Assembly (NCBI GenBank): GCA_945786965.1
Contig: CALZFZ010000186.1
Location: 1 to 35,025 of the forward strand
Direction of reading: 5' to 3'
Source: an uncultured Muriicola sp.
Lineage (GTDB): Bacteria > Bacteroidota > Bacteroidia > Flavobacteriales > Flavobacteriaceae
DNA: 35,025 nt
The notes beneath the pieces were generated by a model. That model did not search any database. It was not told where the DNA came from and worked only from the letters and a program-made list of their open reading frames with translations. Shown here piece after piece: positions 17,096 through 26,065 of this stretch. The translations under genes and the position numbers were made by a program. Numbering within the stretch: the first letter of the stretch is position 1; each line of letters starts with the position of its first letter.

Positions 17096-18526
17096 TTAAG
17101 GTTTTGCTTTGGCAATATTACGGATCATGCCACCAAAAATGAAGTAATGGAAAGGAACCATCGAATACCAATACAGGCGTCCTTTTAATCCTTTGGGTCG
17201 GAAGGTAGCGGTTTGATACAATACATCGTCCTTATCAATTTTAAATTCCAGCCATGCCTCCCCGGGCAATCGCATCTCCGCAAATAACAAAAGACGTTTA
17301 CCTTTTTTATCAGCCAAAAGCACCCTCCAAAAATCCAGGGAGTCACCGGGATAAATTTTATCAGGATGGGTGCGGCCTCGCCTAAGACCAACTCCCCCAT
17401 TAAATTTATCGATAATACCGCGTATTTTCCAAAGCCAGTTCCCGTAATACCAGCCTTGTTCTCCGCCAATTTTCCAGATATTTTGAAGGACGCTAACCGG
17501 GTCCTTAACTTTTATCTTCTTCTCATCCTTAAGCACTCCATATTTAGGCACCTGAATGTATTTCTCCAGATTTCTTTGGAAGCGACCACTCACCATGCTG
17601 TCTTTCCAACTGCTGATCACCAGGTTTTGTTCAATTTTTTTAAAGGCCATATCAATGGCTTCTTTGTAGGTATGGGTTTCAATCCCCAACATTTTTTGCA
17701 ACCTGTTATCCCTGGCCACTACTTCCATTTTCATACTGTCTACCAGGTTTATTGCCAATTTGTATGAGGTTGAGGTAACGAAATAAAGCCAATAAGACGA
17801 TAGTTTGGGGGTCATTATCGGAACGGTAAGGATCCAGTTTTTAAATCCTCTCACGGCAGCGTATTGTTGCAGCATTTCCTTATACGTTATAATATCCGGA
17901 CCGCCTATGTCGAAAGAGTCGTTGTAGGTTTCTTTCTTTCCCAGAACGCCCGTTAGGAAATTAATGATATCCCTGATAGCAATAGGCTGTGTTTTGGTAA
18001 GTACCCATTTAGGGGTGATCATTACGGGTAACTTTTCACACAAATCCCGGACAATTTCAAAAGAGGAACTCCCTGAACCTACAATGATACCTGCCCTTAA
18101 TACGGTGAGGTTGTAATTTCCCTGATATAAAATAGACTCTACATTTTTTCTGGATTTCAGATGTTTGGAAAGTTCTTCTTCATTCACAATGCCACTTAAG
18201 TATATTACCTGTTTTACCGAGGTTTTGTCCATATACATATTAAAGTGCTCAGCGGATAGGGCCTCCTTCTCGTCAAAATCGTGGGTTGAAGAACTCATAG
18301 AGTGAATGAGATAGTACGCCACATCAATATCTGACAGTATTTTTACCGTGGTCACTGGTTTAAGAAAATCAATTTCTACGATTTTTATTCGGGATCGGGT
18401 TTCATCGTCTACAGATAAACGTTTTTCGTCCCTCACAGCGCAGACTACCTCATGCCCCATTTCTAACAACCGGGGTAATAATCGCATTCCAATATAGCCG
18501 TTAGCTCCTGTTAATAGGATTTTCAT
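17096..18526 (-). CDS. SDR-type NAD(P)-binding protein with DUF2867
   Basis: This 476-residue protein has an N-terminal atypical short-chain dehydrogenase (NmrA/epimerase-like) domain with the dinucleotide-binding motif TGANGYIG at residues 6-13 and further fold markers VAYYLIHSMSSS, VIYLSGIVN and LRAGIIVGSGSSSFE. The C-terminal part from about residue 320 (WYYGNWLWKIRGIIDKFNGG, RVLLADKKGKRLLLFAEMRLP) fits DUF2867, a START-like fold. The substrate is unknown. Many Bacteroidota carry this fusion. It is the second gene of a two-gene - strand unit, three bases after the 160-residue gene upstream. Confidence 0.8.
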   Translation of the reverse strand: MKILLTGANGYIGMRLLPRLLEMGHEVVCAVRDEKRLSVDDETRSRIKIVEIDFLKPVTTVKILSDIDVAYYLIHSMSSSTHDFDEKEALSAEHFNMYMDKTSVKQVIYLSGIVNEEELSKHLKSRKNVESILYQGNYNLTVLRAGIIVGSGSSSFEIVRDLCEKLPVMITPKWVLTKTQPIAIRDIINFLTGVLGKKETYNDSFDIGGPDIITYKEMLQQYAAVRGFKNWILTVPIMTPKLSSYWLYFVTSTSYKLAINLVDSMKMEVVARDNRLQKMLGIETHTYKEAIDMAFKKIEQNLVISSWKDSMVSGRFQRNLEKYIQVPKYGVLKDEKKIKVKDPVSVLQNIWKIGGEQGWYYGNWLWKIRGIIDKFNGGVGLRRGRTHPDKIYPGDSLDFWRVLLADKKGKRLLLFAEMRLPGEAWLEFKIDKDDVLYQTATFRPKGLKGRLYWYSMVPFHYFIFGGMIRNIAKAKP

Positions 18527-20909: not shown

Positions 20910-21638
20910 TTATTTTTCAGAACTCTTCGCCACAGCCAAACCATAGATTACAAGTCCGAAACCGATTTTGTTTACTGCATCACCGATGTTGTAGATCACA
21001 TCCATGTTAAGGCCTGTAAACCATCCTTCATACCAACCCGGAGTACCTGCCATATATCCTATAGGATAAATAGCCCATCCAACTAGTACAAACCAGCAAA
21101 GTGTTTTGTGAGCACTTAGAACAGCGCCGCCGGCTTCCTCAGCCAATTTTTTTGCTGTACCAAACCAGATTTCATAAACAATAGCAAAATAAGCGATACC
21201 GGATATAAGACCCCAAACCCAGGCACTATCCCTGTAAACAGCTTCCCCGAAGTATCCGGTAACAAGCATAATCAATGAAAGGGCAATCAATCGCCACATT
21301 AAAGATTTCTTGGCGCCTGCTACTTTAAGGATTAAAAAGAATTCCACACACATTAATGGCACCGTCAATACCCAGTCTACATAGCGAAAGAAGGTAGGTG
21401 ATTCAGCAAAACCAGCCCAGTAATCTCTCATGTACCAGTAGTGAACGGCAGCAATAAAAGTAATTAATCCTGATACCAGGATTGAAGTTCTCCACTTTTT
21501 ATCAAAACTGTTCATTGATAAAAAGAAAAATGCAGAGGCAGCCATCATAGCCATACAGCCTACGAAAAAAGTGAACCCTACATAGTCATTGGTAGCAATC
21601 TTAGAAACCAATGAAATTGATGCTAAAAAATTTTCCAT
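20910..21638 (-). CDS. Proteorhodopsin, proton-pump type
   Basis: A 242-residue microbial rhodopsin with seven hydrophobic segments. The retinal lysine is Lys224 in GDAVNKIGFGLV (helix G). Helix C reads RYVDWVLTVPLMCVEF, giving the pump triad Asp88, Thr92, Glu99 (the DTE pattern of outward proton pumps; sodium pumps have NDQ and chloride pumps NTQ). His66 in AVHYWYMRDYW is the partner of the proton acceptor in proteorhodopsins. The spectral-tuning position is Met96, usual in Bacteroidota and linked with green absorption. The first residues form a short signal-like hydrophilic lead. It is divergent from the retinal-forming enzyme blh and ends at a terminator shared with argS. Confidence 0.97.
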   Translation of the reverse strand: MENFLASISLVSKIATNDYVGFTFFVGCMAMMAASAFFFLSMNSFDKKWRTSILVSGLITFIAAVHYWYMRDYWAGFAESPTFFRYVDWVLTVPLMCVEFFLILKVAGAKKSLMWRLIALSLIMLVTGYFGEAVYRDSAWVWGLISGIAYFAIVYEIWFGTAKKLAEEAGGAVLSAHKTLCWFVLVGWAIYPIGYMAGTPGWYEGWFTGLNMDVIYNIGDAVNKIGFGLVIYGLAVAKSSEK

Positions 21639-21653
21639 ATAATTAGAATTAGT

Positions 21654-21661
21654 TAATTTTG
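21654..21661 (+). promoter_or_regulatory. Candidate -7 box for blh
   Basis: TAATTTTG matches TAnnTTTG exactly on the + strand, predicting transcription from about 21668 and a leader of roughly 57 bases to the TTG start at 21725. Its last base is the first base of the 7-base arm GTTTAAC described at 21660-21689. Confidence 0.45.
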
Positions 21662-21689
21662 TTTAACCAAATATAAAAAAAGTTAAACA
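21660..21689. promoter_or_regulatory. Inverted repeat in the rhodopsin/blh divergent control region
   Basis: TGTTTAAC (21660-21667) and its exact reverse complement GTTAAACA (21682-21689) are separated by 14 bases, so their centres are 22 bases apart, about two helical turns. Extended to 11 bases, 10 positions match. One arm touches the blh -7 box and covers the predicted rhodopsin start; the rhodopsin -7 box lies between the arms. This layout fits an operator for a dimeric regulator; no regulator gene is in the window. Confidence 0.5.
21668..21675 (-). promoter_or_regulatory. Promoter -7 box for proteorhodopsin
   Basis: On the - strand the sequence is TATATTTG, an exact TAnnTTTG match, 30 bases before the rhodopsin start codon, predicting a leader of about 23 bases. 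No clear -33 TTG is seen. Confidence 0.55.
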
Positions 21690-21724
21690 GAAATTCATAA
21701 TTTTATCGTACCTTTTCTATCATT

Positions 21725-22621
21725 TTGGAAAAAAAACAACAAAATATTAACACTTTTAGCAGTTTTATGATCGTTACCACCTTCTTTTTTCTGTGGATAA
21801 CGGTATTTTTTGATGTTCAAGTGGAATCAATTTTAGGATATTTTCTCATTTTCACATTTGGTATATTCCATGGATCTAACGATTTAATGCTCATTCAAAA
21901 AACGACTTCACTTACCAAACAAACCTTTTTTTGGCGAACATTAATAAGCTATATAGCCGTTGTGATGCTCACCGTCCTTTTATTTTCGTTAATTCCATCA
22001 ATTGCCCTGTTGTTCTTTGTTATAGCCAGCAGTTATCACTTCGGCGAGCAACATTGGGGGGCTCTAAAGATTAAGGCCCCTCTCAAATCCTTATTTTATA
22101 CCTTCTATGGATTGGTAATTTTCTTTTTACTTTTTTATTTAAATCAGAAAGAGGTTACCCCTATTATATATCAAATTACGGGAATAGCTATTGAGAAAGT
22201 GGTTTACCTATATACGCTGGCTGTTTCCTTTGCGGCTTTTATCGGGATTTACTTCTGGTGGTACGTTAAAAAAATGATCGATGTTAACATTATAAAAGAA
22301 CTATTCTTTCTGCTGGTCTTGGCTATTGTATTTAGAGCAGCTTCTTTGTTATGGGCTTTTAGTATTTATTTTGTGGTTTGGCACAGTATTCCTTCATTGA
22401 TAGACCAGATCCGTTTCCTTCATGGAACAGTTAACAAAGTAACATTGCTCAAATATCTAAAAAACTCTTTTCTATATTGGTTTGTATCTATGATGGGACT
22501 TGCGGTTCTTTATTTAATTTTCCAGAATCAGGAAGGTCTTTTCCTATCTATAATGATTTACTTCCTTGCCGCAATCACATTTCCACACGTGATTGTGATG
22601 ACCCGTTTAAACCGGGGCTAA
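21725..22621 (+). CDS. blh: Brp/Blh family beta-carotene 15,15'-dioxygenase
   Basis: Blh is a membrane enzyme that cleaves beta-carotene into two molecules of retinal, the chromophore of the neighbouring rhodopsin. From the TTG at 21725 it has 298 residues and about eight membrane segments. The iron-ligand histidines are in GIFHGSND (His49, with Asp53), YHFGEQHWG (His105, His110), VVWHSIPS (His220) and FPHVIV (His288). The first in-frame ATG is at 21767 (residue 15), just inside the first membrane segment; no ATG lies upstream before a stop, so TTG is a reasonable start. It overlaps the receptor gene downstream by the shared bases CTAA. Confidence 0.92.
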   Translation: MEKKQQNINTFSSFMIVTTFFFLWITVFFDVQVESILGYFLIFTFGIFHGSNDLMLIQKTTSLTKQTFFWRTLISYIAVVMLTVLLFSLIPSIALLFFVIASSYHFGEQHWGALKIKAPLKSLFYTFYGLVIFFLLFYLNQKEVTPIIYQITGIAIEKVVYLYTLAVSFAAFIGIYFWWYVKKMIDVNIIKELFFLLVLAIVFRAASLLWAFSIYFVVWHSIPSLIDQIRFLHGTVNKVTLLKYLKNSFLYWFVSMMGLAVLYLIFQNQEGLFLSIMIYFLAAITFPHVIVMTRLNRG

Positions 22622-25173
22622 AATGATACCCTGAAACTTATATTAGGTGTAAGTCCCAGCGAAATACTTTCAACGGTCTCAATTTCATCCATATCGTTTA
22701 AACGGTAATAGGTATTCAACACGTTGCGCTTTCCAAGGACATTAAGGATTGAAGCCCCTGCAGTAGCCTTCACTTCATTTCCGATCAGGAAGGTATAGTT
22801 AAGCGAAGCATCGGCTCGTAGATAATCAGGGAGTCGGCTGCTATTGGGGCTCTGGTAATTGATCGAGTTAGGGAATGTTAAGAGGTTAACCGCATTGGCA
22901 CCTTCCTCTGGCTTGGTATATGGTTTGCCTGTTCTGTAGTTGATCCCCACCCCTAATTTTAGGTTGTTATAGTTGTAGGTACTTGCAAAAGTTAATGTAT
23001 GCCGAATATCGAGGTTGTTCGGAAATTCGCTTGGCGTAATATCTTCGAACCGGTACACATTATCGTTGTAGGCATAGCTTAGCCAGGTACTGTATTGCGA
23101 ATTTTTATAGTTGATGAGAAATTCGGCTCCCTTTACCGTATAGCTGCCTATCTCGCCATTAAACTGATCCTCATTCTGAAAACCCTGGGTCCGAGTGCTA
23201 ATACCATCTACTTCTTTATAAAATCCTTCCAGCCCTATAAACCATTTATTCCGGTCATAATTGAATCCCAGAGAAGCTTGCTTGCTTTTGGTTACAGGCA
23301 AGGTGTCATCATCCGATAAGATCCATCGACGTTTCTCAATACCCAGGAAATTTTGTTCTAAATCTATGATCTGCTGGGTAGTTTGATTTTTAAATTCACC
23401 CTGGATTTCCATGTGGAAATCGGTTGCGATAGCATAACTCATATTCAGCCTTGGTTCCGGGATAAGCACATCAAATGTTCCTAAATTTTCAATATAATTA
23501 AGCCTGCCCCCAGCCATTACCTGCAATAGGCCATTTGGTGAAATATATCCTATTTCCGAAAATAGGGCATGAGTTCGTATAACCCCCTTGACATTGCTTT
23601 TAAAAGGAGGTTGCGTAACATCGGTGGTATTGGTGATTCCAACTTCGGTAAACTGATATCCATTTTTCAACTTTAGCTGGTCATTAATTGCATATGTTGT
23701 TATTAATTTGACCGACTGCTCCAACACCTGATTCTTTTGAAACAATACCTGCTGTCCATCACTGGTAATGTTCTTCGCATCCAGATTGTACCATGTATAG
23801 TAGGCATTTAAATTGGTGGAGAAACGATCGGTCCAGCTACTTTCAAGGTTACCACCAAAAGACAGGTTCCGCTGGTCTAACAAACTTTGATTGCTGCTAC
23901 CGGCATCCTGATTTGTTTCCAGGTAGTCCAGGTTGTTATTGATAGTAATAAAACTAAACCGAGCCCGGTGGAACCTATTGAAATCATAGAGCACTTTCGC
24001 GGAAAAGTCGTAAAAGTAAAAATCTTCTTCCCTGTCAATCCGAAGGTCAGATCCCTGATTATTGTTTTCTTTAACCTTAGTATCCTGAAATATACGGGCG
24101 AAAAACTGATTGTAGGTGGGTGTGTTTAAAAAGTCGGTCAAGGATCGCCTTGCTGAAAACTGAAATGCCAGGTCGTCTTTAATAGGCACATGTCCAAAGA
24201 GATCTCCACTGATCAAATTAAATCCGGCCCCTCCTGAAAAGGAATCCTGTATCTCATTTTTGGTTTGCATGCTGATAATGCCGCTTACTCCATCGCCGTA
24301 CTGGGTACTGGTTCCATTCTTTATGATCGTTACTTTATCGGTCAGGTATGGATTAAATGCTGATATGAGCCCAAAGAAATGCCCTGATTGATACATTTTT
24401 ATGCCGTCCCATAAGATAAGGTTCTGATCGTTGGTACCACCCCGGATATTGATGTCCGAAACGGTCTCATCGATACTTTTAATGCCGGGTAACGCCTGTA
24501 CTGTTTGAAGAATATCTGGTTCAATTAGCCCGGGAAGGATCCCAAAATCCTCAACACTCAGTTCAATGCTTCCATCGATCTGCCGGGCTAAGCCGGTCGT
24601 TAAAAATTGATATACCACTACTTCCTCCAGTTCCTGGTAATTAACTGCCAGTAAGATGGGTTTACAAGGGTTGGCACTTGCAAAATCTTCCGCGGTGATA
24701 TACCTGGTTTTAAACCCAAGATAGCGAATACGTATGCTAGCCTTTCTGGGGATGTTTGTGAGGGAGAACTTTCCGTTGAAATTAGTGACAACAGCTATGC
24801 TGCTACCCAGGACTTCTACCGAAGCTCCCATTACATTGTTCTTGCCAAAATTGTCAAGGACAAAGCCACAAATATCGACCGTAGTACTCCTGGAAATGGT
24901 ATAATACCGTTCGGAAAGCTTTTTTATCAGCAATTGGGTTTCATTTTGAATAGCATTCAAAATACCAGTCAGATCGGTTCCCGGGGGGATGCTGATCTTT
25001 ACGGGTTCAAGATCGGTGTCTACGTAAGAAAATTTGACGTTGAACCGTGTTTCTAAATCTTGGATATAAGAAATGATGGGTACCTTTTGATTGTCCTGGG
25101 CCAAGCCAATGGCCAGGGCCCAAAAAAGCAACAGATACAAACTGAAGTTTCTCTTACGGCGCGTTTTCTGCAT
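22618..25173 (-). CDS. TonB-dependent outer-membrane receptor with STN domain
   Basis: An 851-residue outer-membrane receptor. After a signal peptide (about residues 1-26, ending GLAQ) come an STN domain (about 30-95, DLETRFNVKFSYVD), a CarboxypepD-regulatory-like beta domain (about 98-185, CGFVLDNFGKNNVMGASVEV), a plug (about 200-310, with DILQTVQALPGIKSIDETVS and INIRGGTNDQNLILWDGIKM) and a 22-strand-type barrel ending with a terminal Phe (SFRVSF). The STN domain is the part that talks to FecR in signalling receptors, and the fecR-type gene precedes it with a 20-base overlap, so this is a trans-envelope signalling system. The ligand is unknown; no SusD-like gene is present. Confidence 0.93.
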   Translation of the reverse strand: MQKTRRKRNFSLYLLLFWALAIGLAQDNQKVPIISYIQDLETRFNVKFSYVDTDLEPVKISIPPGTDLTGILNAIQNETQLLIKKLSERYYTISRSTTVDICGFVLDNFGKNNVMGASVEVLGSSIAVVTNFNGKFSLTNIPRKASIRIRYLGFKTRYITAEDFASANPCKPILLAVNYQELEEVVVYQFLTTGLARQIDGSIELSVEDFGILPGLIEPDILQTVQALPGIKSIDETVSDINIRGGTNDQNLILWDGIKMYQSGHFFGLISAFNPYLTDKVTIIKNGTSTQYGDGVSGIISMQTKNEIQDSFSGGAGFNLISGDLFGHVPIKDDLAFQFSARRSLTDFLNTPTYNQFFARIFQDTKVKENNNQGSDLRIDREEDFYFYDFSAKVLYDFNRFHRARFSFITINNNLDYLETNQDAGSSNQSLLDQRNLSFGGNLESSWTDRFSTNLNAYYTWYNLDAKNITSDGQQVLFQKNQVLEQSVKLITTYAINDQLKLKNGYQFTEVGITNTTDVTQPPFKSNVKGVIRTHALFSEIGYISPNGLLQVMAGGRLNYIENLGTFDVLIPEPRLNMSYAIATDFHMEIQGEFKNQTTQQIIDLEQNFLGIEKRRWILSDDDTLPVTKSKQASLGFNYDRNKWFIGLEGFYKEVDGISTRTQGFQNEDQFNGEIGSYTVKGAEFLINYKNSQYSTWLSYAYNDNVYRFEDITPSEFPNNLDIRHTLTFASTYNYNNLKLGVGINYRTGKPYTKPEEGANAVNLLTFPNSINYQSPNSSRLPDYLRADASLNYTFLIGNEVKATAGASILNVLGKRNVLNTYYRLNDMDEIETVESISLGLTPNISFRVSF

Positions 25174-26065
25174 AGAAGAGTACTTTATTCTTCTCTAAGC
25201 TGTACTTAATCTGAGAAGGAGCACTTATACTCTGTAACGCCAAATTTATGTTTGTGTTGCTAAAACTACCAGTAAATAATTGCTGAAGATCTATGTTATT
25301 GGTTTCAACCTTAATGTCATATTGACGTTGAAATTCGTCAAACACGTACAATAGGGGGATACTCTTAAAAGTACTTTCGTTTCGTATCCATGAAGGTTCA
25401 GATGCTGAAGGGGTCTCGGCAGGTAGTACCGTCCCATTTATGACCATAAAAGACGTACCCGCTGGTAGCTTTCTTTCCGTACCTTGAAAGTTTACACTTA
25501 CCAGGCCTTCGAAACAAGTTACTTCAAAAAAGCCTTTTCTGCTTTCCACGTTAAACTGAGTTCCTAAAACACTTACGGTTCCGGCATCCGTGGCAACCGT
25601 AAATTTTTTGCCTTTGGCAACCTTGAAAAAGGCTTCACCCTCCAAAGATAAATTTCGTTCTTCATCCCATTTTCGGGCACTGTAAGAAAGTTTGGAATCT
25701 GCATTTAAAAGAACTTCCGAAGCATCGGGCAATACAACTTCGGTGCGTTGCGCATAGTCCGTTGAAAACGTTTCATCCAGGGACGAAATATAAAAATAAG
25801 TGGCAGCAAATAATACGGTTATGGCTGCGGCTATTCGCATCAGGTATCTCGAAGGATGCAAACGAACCACTTTTTTATCACTTGATTCCCGTGCTTTTTT
25901 GAAATCATGAAGAGCCCGTTCCAAGTCAAAGGTTGGAGCTTCCAATGATTCACTGGCACCAATGATCTTCTCATACGAAGCAAACGCTTCAGAACGCTTA
26001 AATTCTGCCAGCTCTTGCTCAGAGAGTTCATTATTTAGCCATTTGGCCAGGTAATTTTCTTTCAT
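25154..26065 (-). CDS. FecR-type anti-sigma factor
   Basis: A 303-residue single-pass inner-membrane regulator. The cytoplasmic part (residues 1-75) binds the ECF sigma factor; the membrane segment is about 75-93 (LMRIAAAITVLFAATYFY). The periplasmic FecR domain is seen in RTEVVLPDASEVLLNADSKL, LSLEGEAFFKVAKGKKFTV and VLGTQFNV, and the C-terminal DUF4974 domain in FKSIPLLYVFDEFQRQYDIK and FTGSFSNTNINLALQSI. It lies between the sigma gene (118 bases upstream) and the receptor gene (20-base overlap), the standard order. Confidence 0.95.
   Translation of the reverse strand: MKENYLAKWLNNELSEQELAEFKRSEAFASYEKIIGASESLEAPTFDLERALHDFKKARESSDKKVVRLHPSRYLMRIAAAITVLFAATYFYISSLDETFSTDYAQRTEVVLPDASEVLLNADSKLSYSARKWDEERNLSLEGEAFFKVAKGKKFTVATDAGTVSVLGTQFNVESRKGFFEVTCFEGLVSVNFQGTERKLPAGTSFMVINGTVLPAETPSASEPSWIRNESTFKSIPLLYVFDEFQRQYDIKVETNNIDLQQLFTGSFSNTNINLALQSISAPSQIKYSLEKNKVLFYAENAP

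Follow-up and report, generated by a model that had tools for sequence, protein, structure and literature searches.

The window, i.e. the whole stretch of 35,025 nucleotides that was analysed, is contig C186 of an uncultured Muriicola genome of 2.39 Mb that is ~80% complete. It contains an opsin gene of the proteorhodopsin type specifying 242 amino acids on the minus strand (positions 20910–21638), identified by PF01036 and its relatives, and blh, the beta-carotene 15,15'-dioxygenase gene, on the plus strand (21725–22621; PF15461). These Pfam assignments confirm the identities of the two genes, which were described as lying on opposite strands in an earlier sequence-only reading of this DNA. 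The opsin is 93–94% identical to the opsins of one Eudoraea MAG and two Muriicola species. The divergent spacer between the genes (21639–21724) is 86 bases long if blh starts at the TTG at position 21725; in the 31 relatives with a blh alignment starting from residue 1, this position is ATG in 14, TTG in 9, and no usual start codon in 8. Immediately 3' of blh (22618–26065), the opposite strand carries a FecR-like gene and a gene whose product has domains of the TonB-receptor plug and carboxypeptidase-like types.

The spacer contains a 30-bp operator-like palindrome, TGTTTAAC-N14-GTTAAACA (21660–21689), with the core TGTTTAA-N16-TTAAACA. The -7 box of the rhodopsin gene, TATATTTG (21668–21675, minus strand), lies within the palindrome, and that of blh, TAATTTTG (21654–21661, plus strand), shares two nucleotides with it (21660–21661). 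The 8-bp inverted repeat that brackets one box and meets the other, and the two boxes on opposite strands with six bases between them, are therefore present as first described. When the -7 box is taken as spanning -12 to -5, as described for F. psychrophilum (PMC9723704), transcription is predicted to start at ~21663 (minus strand) and ~21666 (plus strand), so that simultaneous use of the two promoters by two polymerases would hardly be feasible, and both predicted starts would be covered by a single protein bound to the palindrome. No further site was found in the window at up to three mismatches. Thus, a DUF2867 SDR-type gene located 3 kb from the opsin gene (17096–18526), which by eye resembles the site-bearing genes of loci L171, L178, and L182, has no site of its own.

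An inverted repeat of 8 bp is by itself weak evidence, because one with a loop of 3–40 bases occurs in 1,362 of 5,000 (27%) dinucleotide shuffles of the AT-rich spacer sequence. The particular 7-bp arms observed here, at spacings of anywhere from 10 to 22, were found in 3 of 20,000 shuffles. Comparison with related spacers, which the sequence-only reading had proposed as a check, was made over ~110 nt upstream of the opsin gene in 80 named relatives and the window. In these 81 sequences, the core is perfect in 44; the number rises to 73 when one mismatch is tolerated and to 79 when two are, and the objection that the repeat might not be conserved consequently fails. Shuffled sequences match the core at these two tolerances in 0.16 and 2.7% of cases, respectively. 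At the other spacers from 4 to 29, at most one exact and five one-mismatch matches were obtained, and the two-mismatch matches reach 29 of 81 (spacer 26) versus 79 at spacer 16. One of the two exceptions, L068, carries TGTCTAG-N16-TTAGACA, in which one position of each arm has changed in a matching way. In a second set of eight opsin spacers, three of which were chosen because their genomes lack sites (overall, 15 places were hand-picked, with exceptions and ordinary genomes mixed), four contain the palindrome with no more than one mismatch, and nothing below three mismatches was found in the other four (G029, G089, G014, and G051). A flavobacterial-type opsin-blh pair with the palindrome was also found in a record titled Candidatus Rokubacteria (L080), which is probably a misplaced contig or the result of transfer.

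The palindrome is not confined to the opsin locus. In the Muriicola genome, ~0.002 copies of the exact 8-bp form are expected from base composition and two were observed, the second at C27:8316–8345. When three mismatches are allowed, the same genome contains 21 forward matches versus 38 of the reversed control pattern; since there is no excess at this level, near-exact sites alone are informative in this genome. In 11 named relatives, 128 sites with at most one mismatch were identified versus 50 for the reversed pattern, and in 120 Flavobacteriaceae genomes (one per genus) 361 exact sites were identified, distributed over 97 genomes, whereas the reversed pattern gave 16 matches and a spacer of 15 gave 7. 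A chance palindrome or simple AT-rich repeat, although suggested by the frequency of 8-bp repeats among shuffles, is thus ruled out for practical purposes by the conservation at one spacing and by the reversed and spacer-15 controls.

The site on C27 is flanked on one side by a flavin-reductase gene, behind which lies a photolyase gene, and on the other by a kynurenine-3-monooxygenase-like gene (the latter assigned by eye). The neighbours of sites at 40 loci include genes for opsin, photolyases, a cryptochrome-like protein, FolE (GTP cyclohydrolase), PTPS, and flavin reductase, and also fasciclins, CIA30, DoxX_2, and, by eye, HtpG; 20 of the places were hand-picked among the sites listed, i.e. 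14 exact sites and 6 one-mismatch sites chosen as AT-rich. A gene set comprising SRPBCC (by eye; without a Pfam match), SDR, and photolyase genes is also located beside sites. In an automatically picked set, 28 of 29 motif loci are intergenic, versus 9 of 30 reversed-pattern loci. A gene of the light set adjoins 12 of the 29 motif loci (17 when fasciclins are included) and none of the 30 reversed-pattern loci, where the reference consists of genes found next to the motif in other genomes and the term 'light set' is our own. The site lies between the regulator gene described below and crtI in 8 of the 29. Twelve motif loci without a reference match adjoin, by eye, genes for a DUF2867-type SDR, HtpG, a TetR-like protein, and others. 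HtpG-like genes (by eye) or fasciclins were seen beside palindromes at L103, L113, L115, L189, L192, and L199 and at L104, L137, L172, L173, and others; fasciclin, HtpG, and CIA30 genes do not belong to the classical light genes. In Winogradskyella wandonensis (L109) and Nonlabens tegetincola (L116), a palindrome (1501–1530) lies upstream of a second rhodopsin gene (PF01036), the product of which resembles the sodium pump. All of the LitR/CarH-type regulon targets that were tested are present, i.e. photolyase/cryptochrome, FolE, and carotenoid genes and the regulator itself. Judged from these sequence comparisons, the palindrome is well supported as an operator, and it appears to serve a family-wide regulon.

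Two MerR-domain proteins are encoded in the Muriicola genome, and the long one (P0001, contig C81) is the candidate regulator. Its gene heads a MerR-crtI-crtB-crtZ cluster (assigned by Pfam for crtI and crtB and by eye for crtZ), and a palindrome with two mismatches overlaps its start codon. One P0001 match is present in each of 12 rhodopsin genomes searched, including that of the window; in 11 of the 12, the palindrome covers the regulator start at the same place with two mismatches, and an N17 form was recognised by eye in the twelfth. At the regulator gene, all 12 have a -7 box joined directly to the left arm, which is the layout seen at blh. Among the family genomes, sites are present in 94 of 97 with a close ortholog, in 3 of 9 with distant matches (7 sites), and in none of 14 without a match; this division into close and distant was set after a gap between E values of ~2e-73 and 2e-48 had been seen, and G031 (E 4e-5) counts as distant. 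The co-occurrence of ortholog and sites gives p ~1e-16 in Fisher's test with kinship ignored and one genome per genus. Genomes G029, G089, and G130 have a close ortholog and no exact site, and only forms with at least three mismatches were seen at the places read; G051 has the ortholog and sites, yet no palindrome at its opsin gene. A close ortholog was found in 21 of 22 opsin genomes, which were defined by E below 1e-50, a cut-off chosen after the list had been seen and leaving out one weak match. The exception is G014, the opsin frame of which (G014:C16:15275–16003, L160) contains one in-frame stop and which has neither a regulator match nor exact sites; decay of the whole programme is possible in this genome.

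Sites are also present in 75 of 76 genomes that have the ortholog and lack opsin, and the opsin gene is therefore one client among several. This distribution bears on the possibility that another transcription factor binds the palindrome and that the CarH-like gene is merely a target, co-occurring with the sites through a shared lifestyle. The sites in three genomes with distant homologs only would fit such a factor, and a site at the start of the CarH-like gene is expected under any regulator; however, the contrast between genomes with a close ortholog and those without a match, the position of the site over the regulator's own start codon, as autoregulation predicts, and the persistence of sites in ortholog genomes devoid of opsin make this explanation very improbable. 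MliR of Bizionia was also considered and rejected, as it is linked to iron and not to the palindrome in the available text of the report on it (PMC9478572). We strongly infer that P0001 is the regulator acting on the palindrome.

At the opsin locus itself, blh is oriented divergently from the opsin gene in 79 of the 80 loci examined; the contig of L017 stops 105 nt upstream. In the 79 spacers with the palindrome, TANNTTTG occurs on the opsin strand at a single offset within the palindrome in 29 (47 with the relaxed form TANNTTT[GAC]), and on the blh strand abutting the outer edge of the palindrome in 35. Inspection by eye of the window together with its six closest relatives showed no change in the blh box and an exact opsin box in five of seven. 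From the opsin-proximal palindrome, the blh start position is 35–37 nt away in 26 of the 31 relatives aligned from blh residue 1; four others have 45–47 nt and one has 27 nt. The opsin ATG lies 10–24 nt from the palindrome in these relatives, and the spacing on the blh side is the steadier of the two. In 33 other gene-site pairs, exact TANNTTTG was found at -6, i.e. at the edge as in blh, in 8 and within the site at +15 in 2.

An operator serving rhodopsin alone, with the blh box an accident of AT-rich sequence, would account for the presence of the exact blh box in fewer than half of the spacers, and the base composition of the right flank makes such boxes fairly common. This reading is improbable nevertheless: the mirror-image box on the opsin strand at the other edge of the palindrome occurs in only 7 of 79, and the identity of the blh box among the closest relatives and the steadier spacing to the blh start argue against it as well. 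One operator common to rhodopsin and blh is thus well supported on comparative grounds, because the repeat is conserved, the boxes lie at fixed offsets, and the distance to the blh start is steady. The joint control of pump and retinal supply put forward in the sequence-only reading is strengthened to this extent, and the second set of spacers, with the palindrome in half of them, counts against it.

A second copy of the palindrome is present in 41 of the 79 spacers, and the 42 extra copies are 34–35 nt (31 copies), 44–46 nt (10), or 10 nt (1) away, spacings that mostly differ by one helical turn. In 18 of the 31 relatives, no more than 12 nt separate the beginning of the outer palindrome from the blh start; the clade of the window has a single copy. 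The 23 bp between arm starts and the pairing of palindromes at 35 or 45 nt suggest that one helix face is occupied by two dimers or a tetramer, rather than by the lone dimer first envisaged.

P0001 resembles CarH of Thermus, Myxococcus, and Bacillus megaterium in possessing MerR and cobalamin-binding domains and the key cobalamin residues. An N-terminal MerR domain (PF13411, E 2.2e-12) and a helical B12-binding_2 domain (PF02607, E 1e-9) were identified; the PF02310 profile gave no match to P0001 and matched three other proteins of the genome. The best match among solved structures is Thermus CarH/LitR (E ~1e-11), which is also the first match of the predicted model (mean pLDDT 85), with the cobalamin domain aligned at Z 18.5 and an rmsd of 3.0 over 193 residues. 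Thus, the fold predicted after the helical domain matches the Rossmann B12-binding domain of Thermus CarH despite the missing PF02310 match. Residues W143, E153, H154, and H193 align to W131, E141, H142, and H177 of CarH and are invariant in 12 orthologs. The position of His132, for which a ligand switch has been described in Thermus CarH (PMC10442372), is Gln in 11 of the 12; as this residue was described for the Thermus protein, its use as a family-defining criterion is doubtful. By the features examined, in sequence and in the predicted model, P0001 belongs to the CarH/LitR family, His132 excepted.

These features also bear on the signal. P0001 might be the regulator without being a B12 light sensor, responding through a partner photoreceptor, as class II LitR does, or to redox, singlet oxygen, or B12 supply. 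The unmatched PF02310 profile and the Gln at the His132 position point in this direction, as do the GxxH motif of light-responsive domains (PMC11796333), which reads ENEIH in P0001, and the action of class II LitR with a LOV protein (PMC9758184). Against this stand the invariant cobalamin W, E, H, and H residues and the prediction of a complete cobalamin-domain fold, and we regard this alternative as rather unlikely.

Comparison with known systems places the operator apart from both related types. CarH is a B12-dependent light repressor of carotenoid genes, and the presence of carotenoid genes nearby and of an operator over promoters is common to CarH and the system described here (PMC8156234). 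Its operator consists of tandem 11-bp direct repeats, nAnnTnnACAn, in contrast to the 30-bp inverted repeat found here, and only the core TnnACA fits the palindrome arms. Unlike in Thermus, the residue corresponding to His132 is mostly Gln, and rhodopsin and blh are among the targets. Class II LitR (PplR/PmlR2 of Pseudomonas), whose light genes include phrB, cryB, and folE, represses photolyase, cryptochrome-like, FolE, and SDR genes and a family member, i.e. the same kinds of genes as found beside the palindrome, and likewise acts through two half-sites at promoters (PMC9758184). The class II LitR consensus, T(G/A)TACA-N12-TGTA(C/T)A, differs from TGTTTAA/TTAAACA at N16 in both sequence and spacing, and at N12 to N14 the opsin spacers contain no exact and at most two one-mismatch matches; in the parts of that paper available to us, rhodopsin or carotenoid targets are not named, unlike here. 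In Sediminicola, blh adjoins the proteorhodopsin (PR) gene and a MerR-family gene precedes crtI (PMC4732338), and in Dokdonia MED134 a TTG/TANNTTTG promoter lies upstream of PR (PMC3587595), both as in the present genome; the available portions of these two accounts contain no operator, regulon, or MerR-PR link. Start sites for flavobacterial rhodopsin were not found in the accessible text of PMC5069720.

Taken together, the reading that we consider probable is that the palindrome is the operator of a family-wide light and photo-damage regulon, with the CarH/LitR-like P0001 repressing in the dark and being released by light. By analogy, dark repression through promoter occlusion is the most likely mode of action, since CarH and class II LitR are both repressors with operators at promoters. 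In the dark, P0001, presumably loaded with adenosylcobalamin, would sit over the overlapping rhodopsin and blh promoters and exclude RNA polymerase from both, because the 30-bp site contains or borders both -7 boxes and both predicted starts. In the light, the cobalamin bond would be broken and P0001 released from the DNA, leading to joint induction of rhodopsin, retinal synthesis, carotenoid, photolyase, and pterin genes. Binding of P0001 to the palindrome, repression, and light and B12 as the signal are thus steps that we infer. The presence of exact TANNTTTG at both offsets in well under half of the spacers counts against this reading, as do the two mismatches in the regulator's own site in this genome, the genomes in which ortholog and sites do not coincide, the unmatched PF02310 profile, the Gln at the His132 position, and the many site neighbours outside the classical light genes. 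Light control, a speculation in the sequence-only reading, gains weight from the regulon and its CarH/LitR-like regulator, and light stands as a candidate signal. A light response of PR, cryptochrome, and photolyase is stated for Dokdonia MED134 (PMC9040609). The rule of a light switch may not be universal, because constitutive PR expression is mentioned for Dokdonia PRO95 (PMC3587595) and, in the part of the report available, no car or lit operon was found in a light-induced Chryseobacterium (PMC7064467).

In the open-licence literature searched, as far as the available text of these papers extends, we found no description of this operator or of the wiring of rhodopsin and blh into a CarH/LitR-type regulon, and no regulator or operator named for proteorhodopsin in marine flavobacteria. 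The present analysis provides a precisely defined DNA site, a photoreceptor candidate, and a set of putatively co-regulated genes. In its broadest form, which we hold to be about evenly balanced between right and wrong, the proposal is that rhodopsin phototrophy throughout the Flavobacteriaceae has a single master light switch, a B12-photoreceptor repressor that acts on the 30-bp inverted repeat as a new operator and governs the proton pump, the second rhodopsin (in two genomes), the retinal enzyme, carotenoid precursors, and photolyases as a single programme. If true, rhodopsin phototrophy would be joined with B12-based photoprotection, two systems that are usually studied apart. Such a switch predicts that phototrophy depends on vitamin B12, the supply of which, besides light, would therefore set opsin expression.
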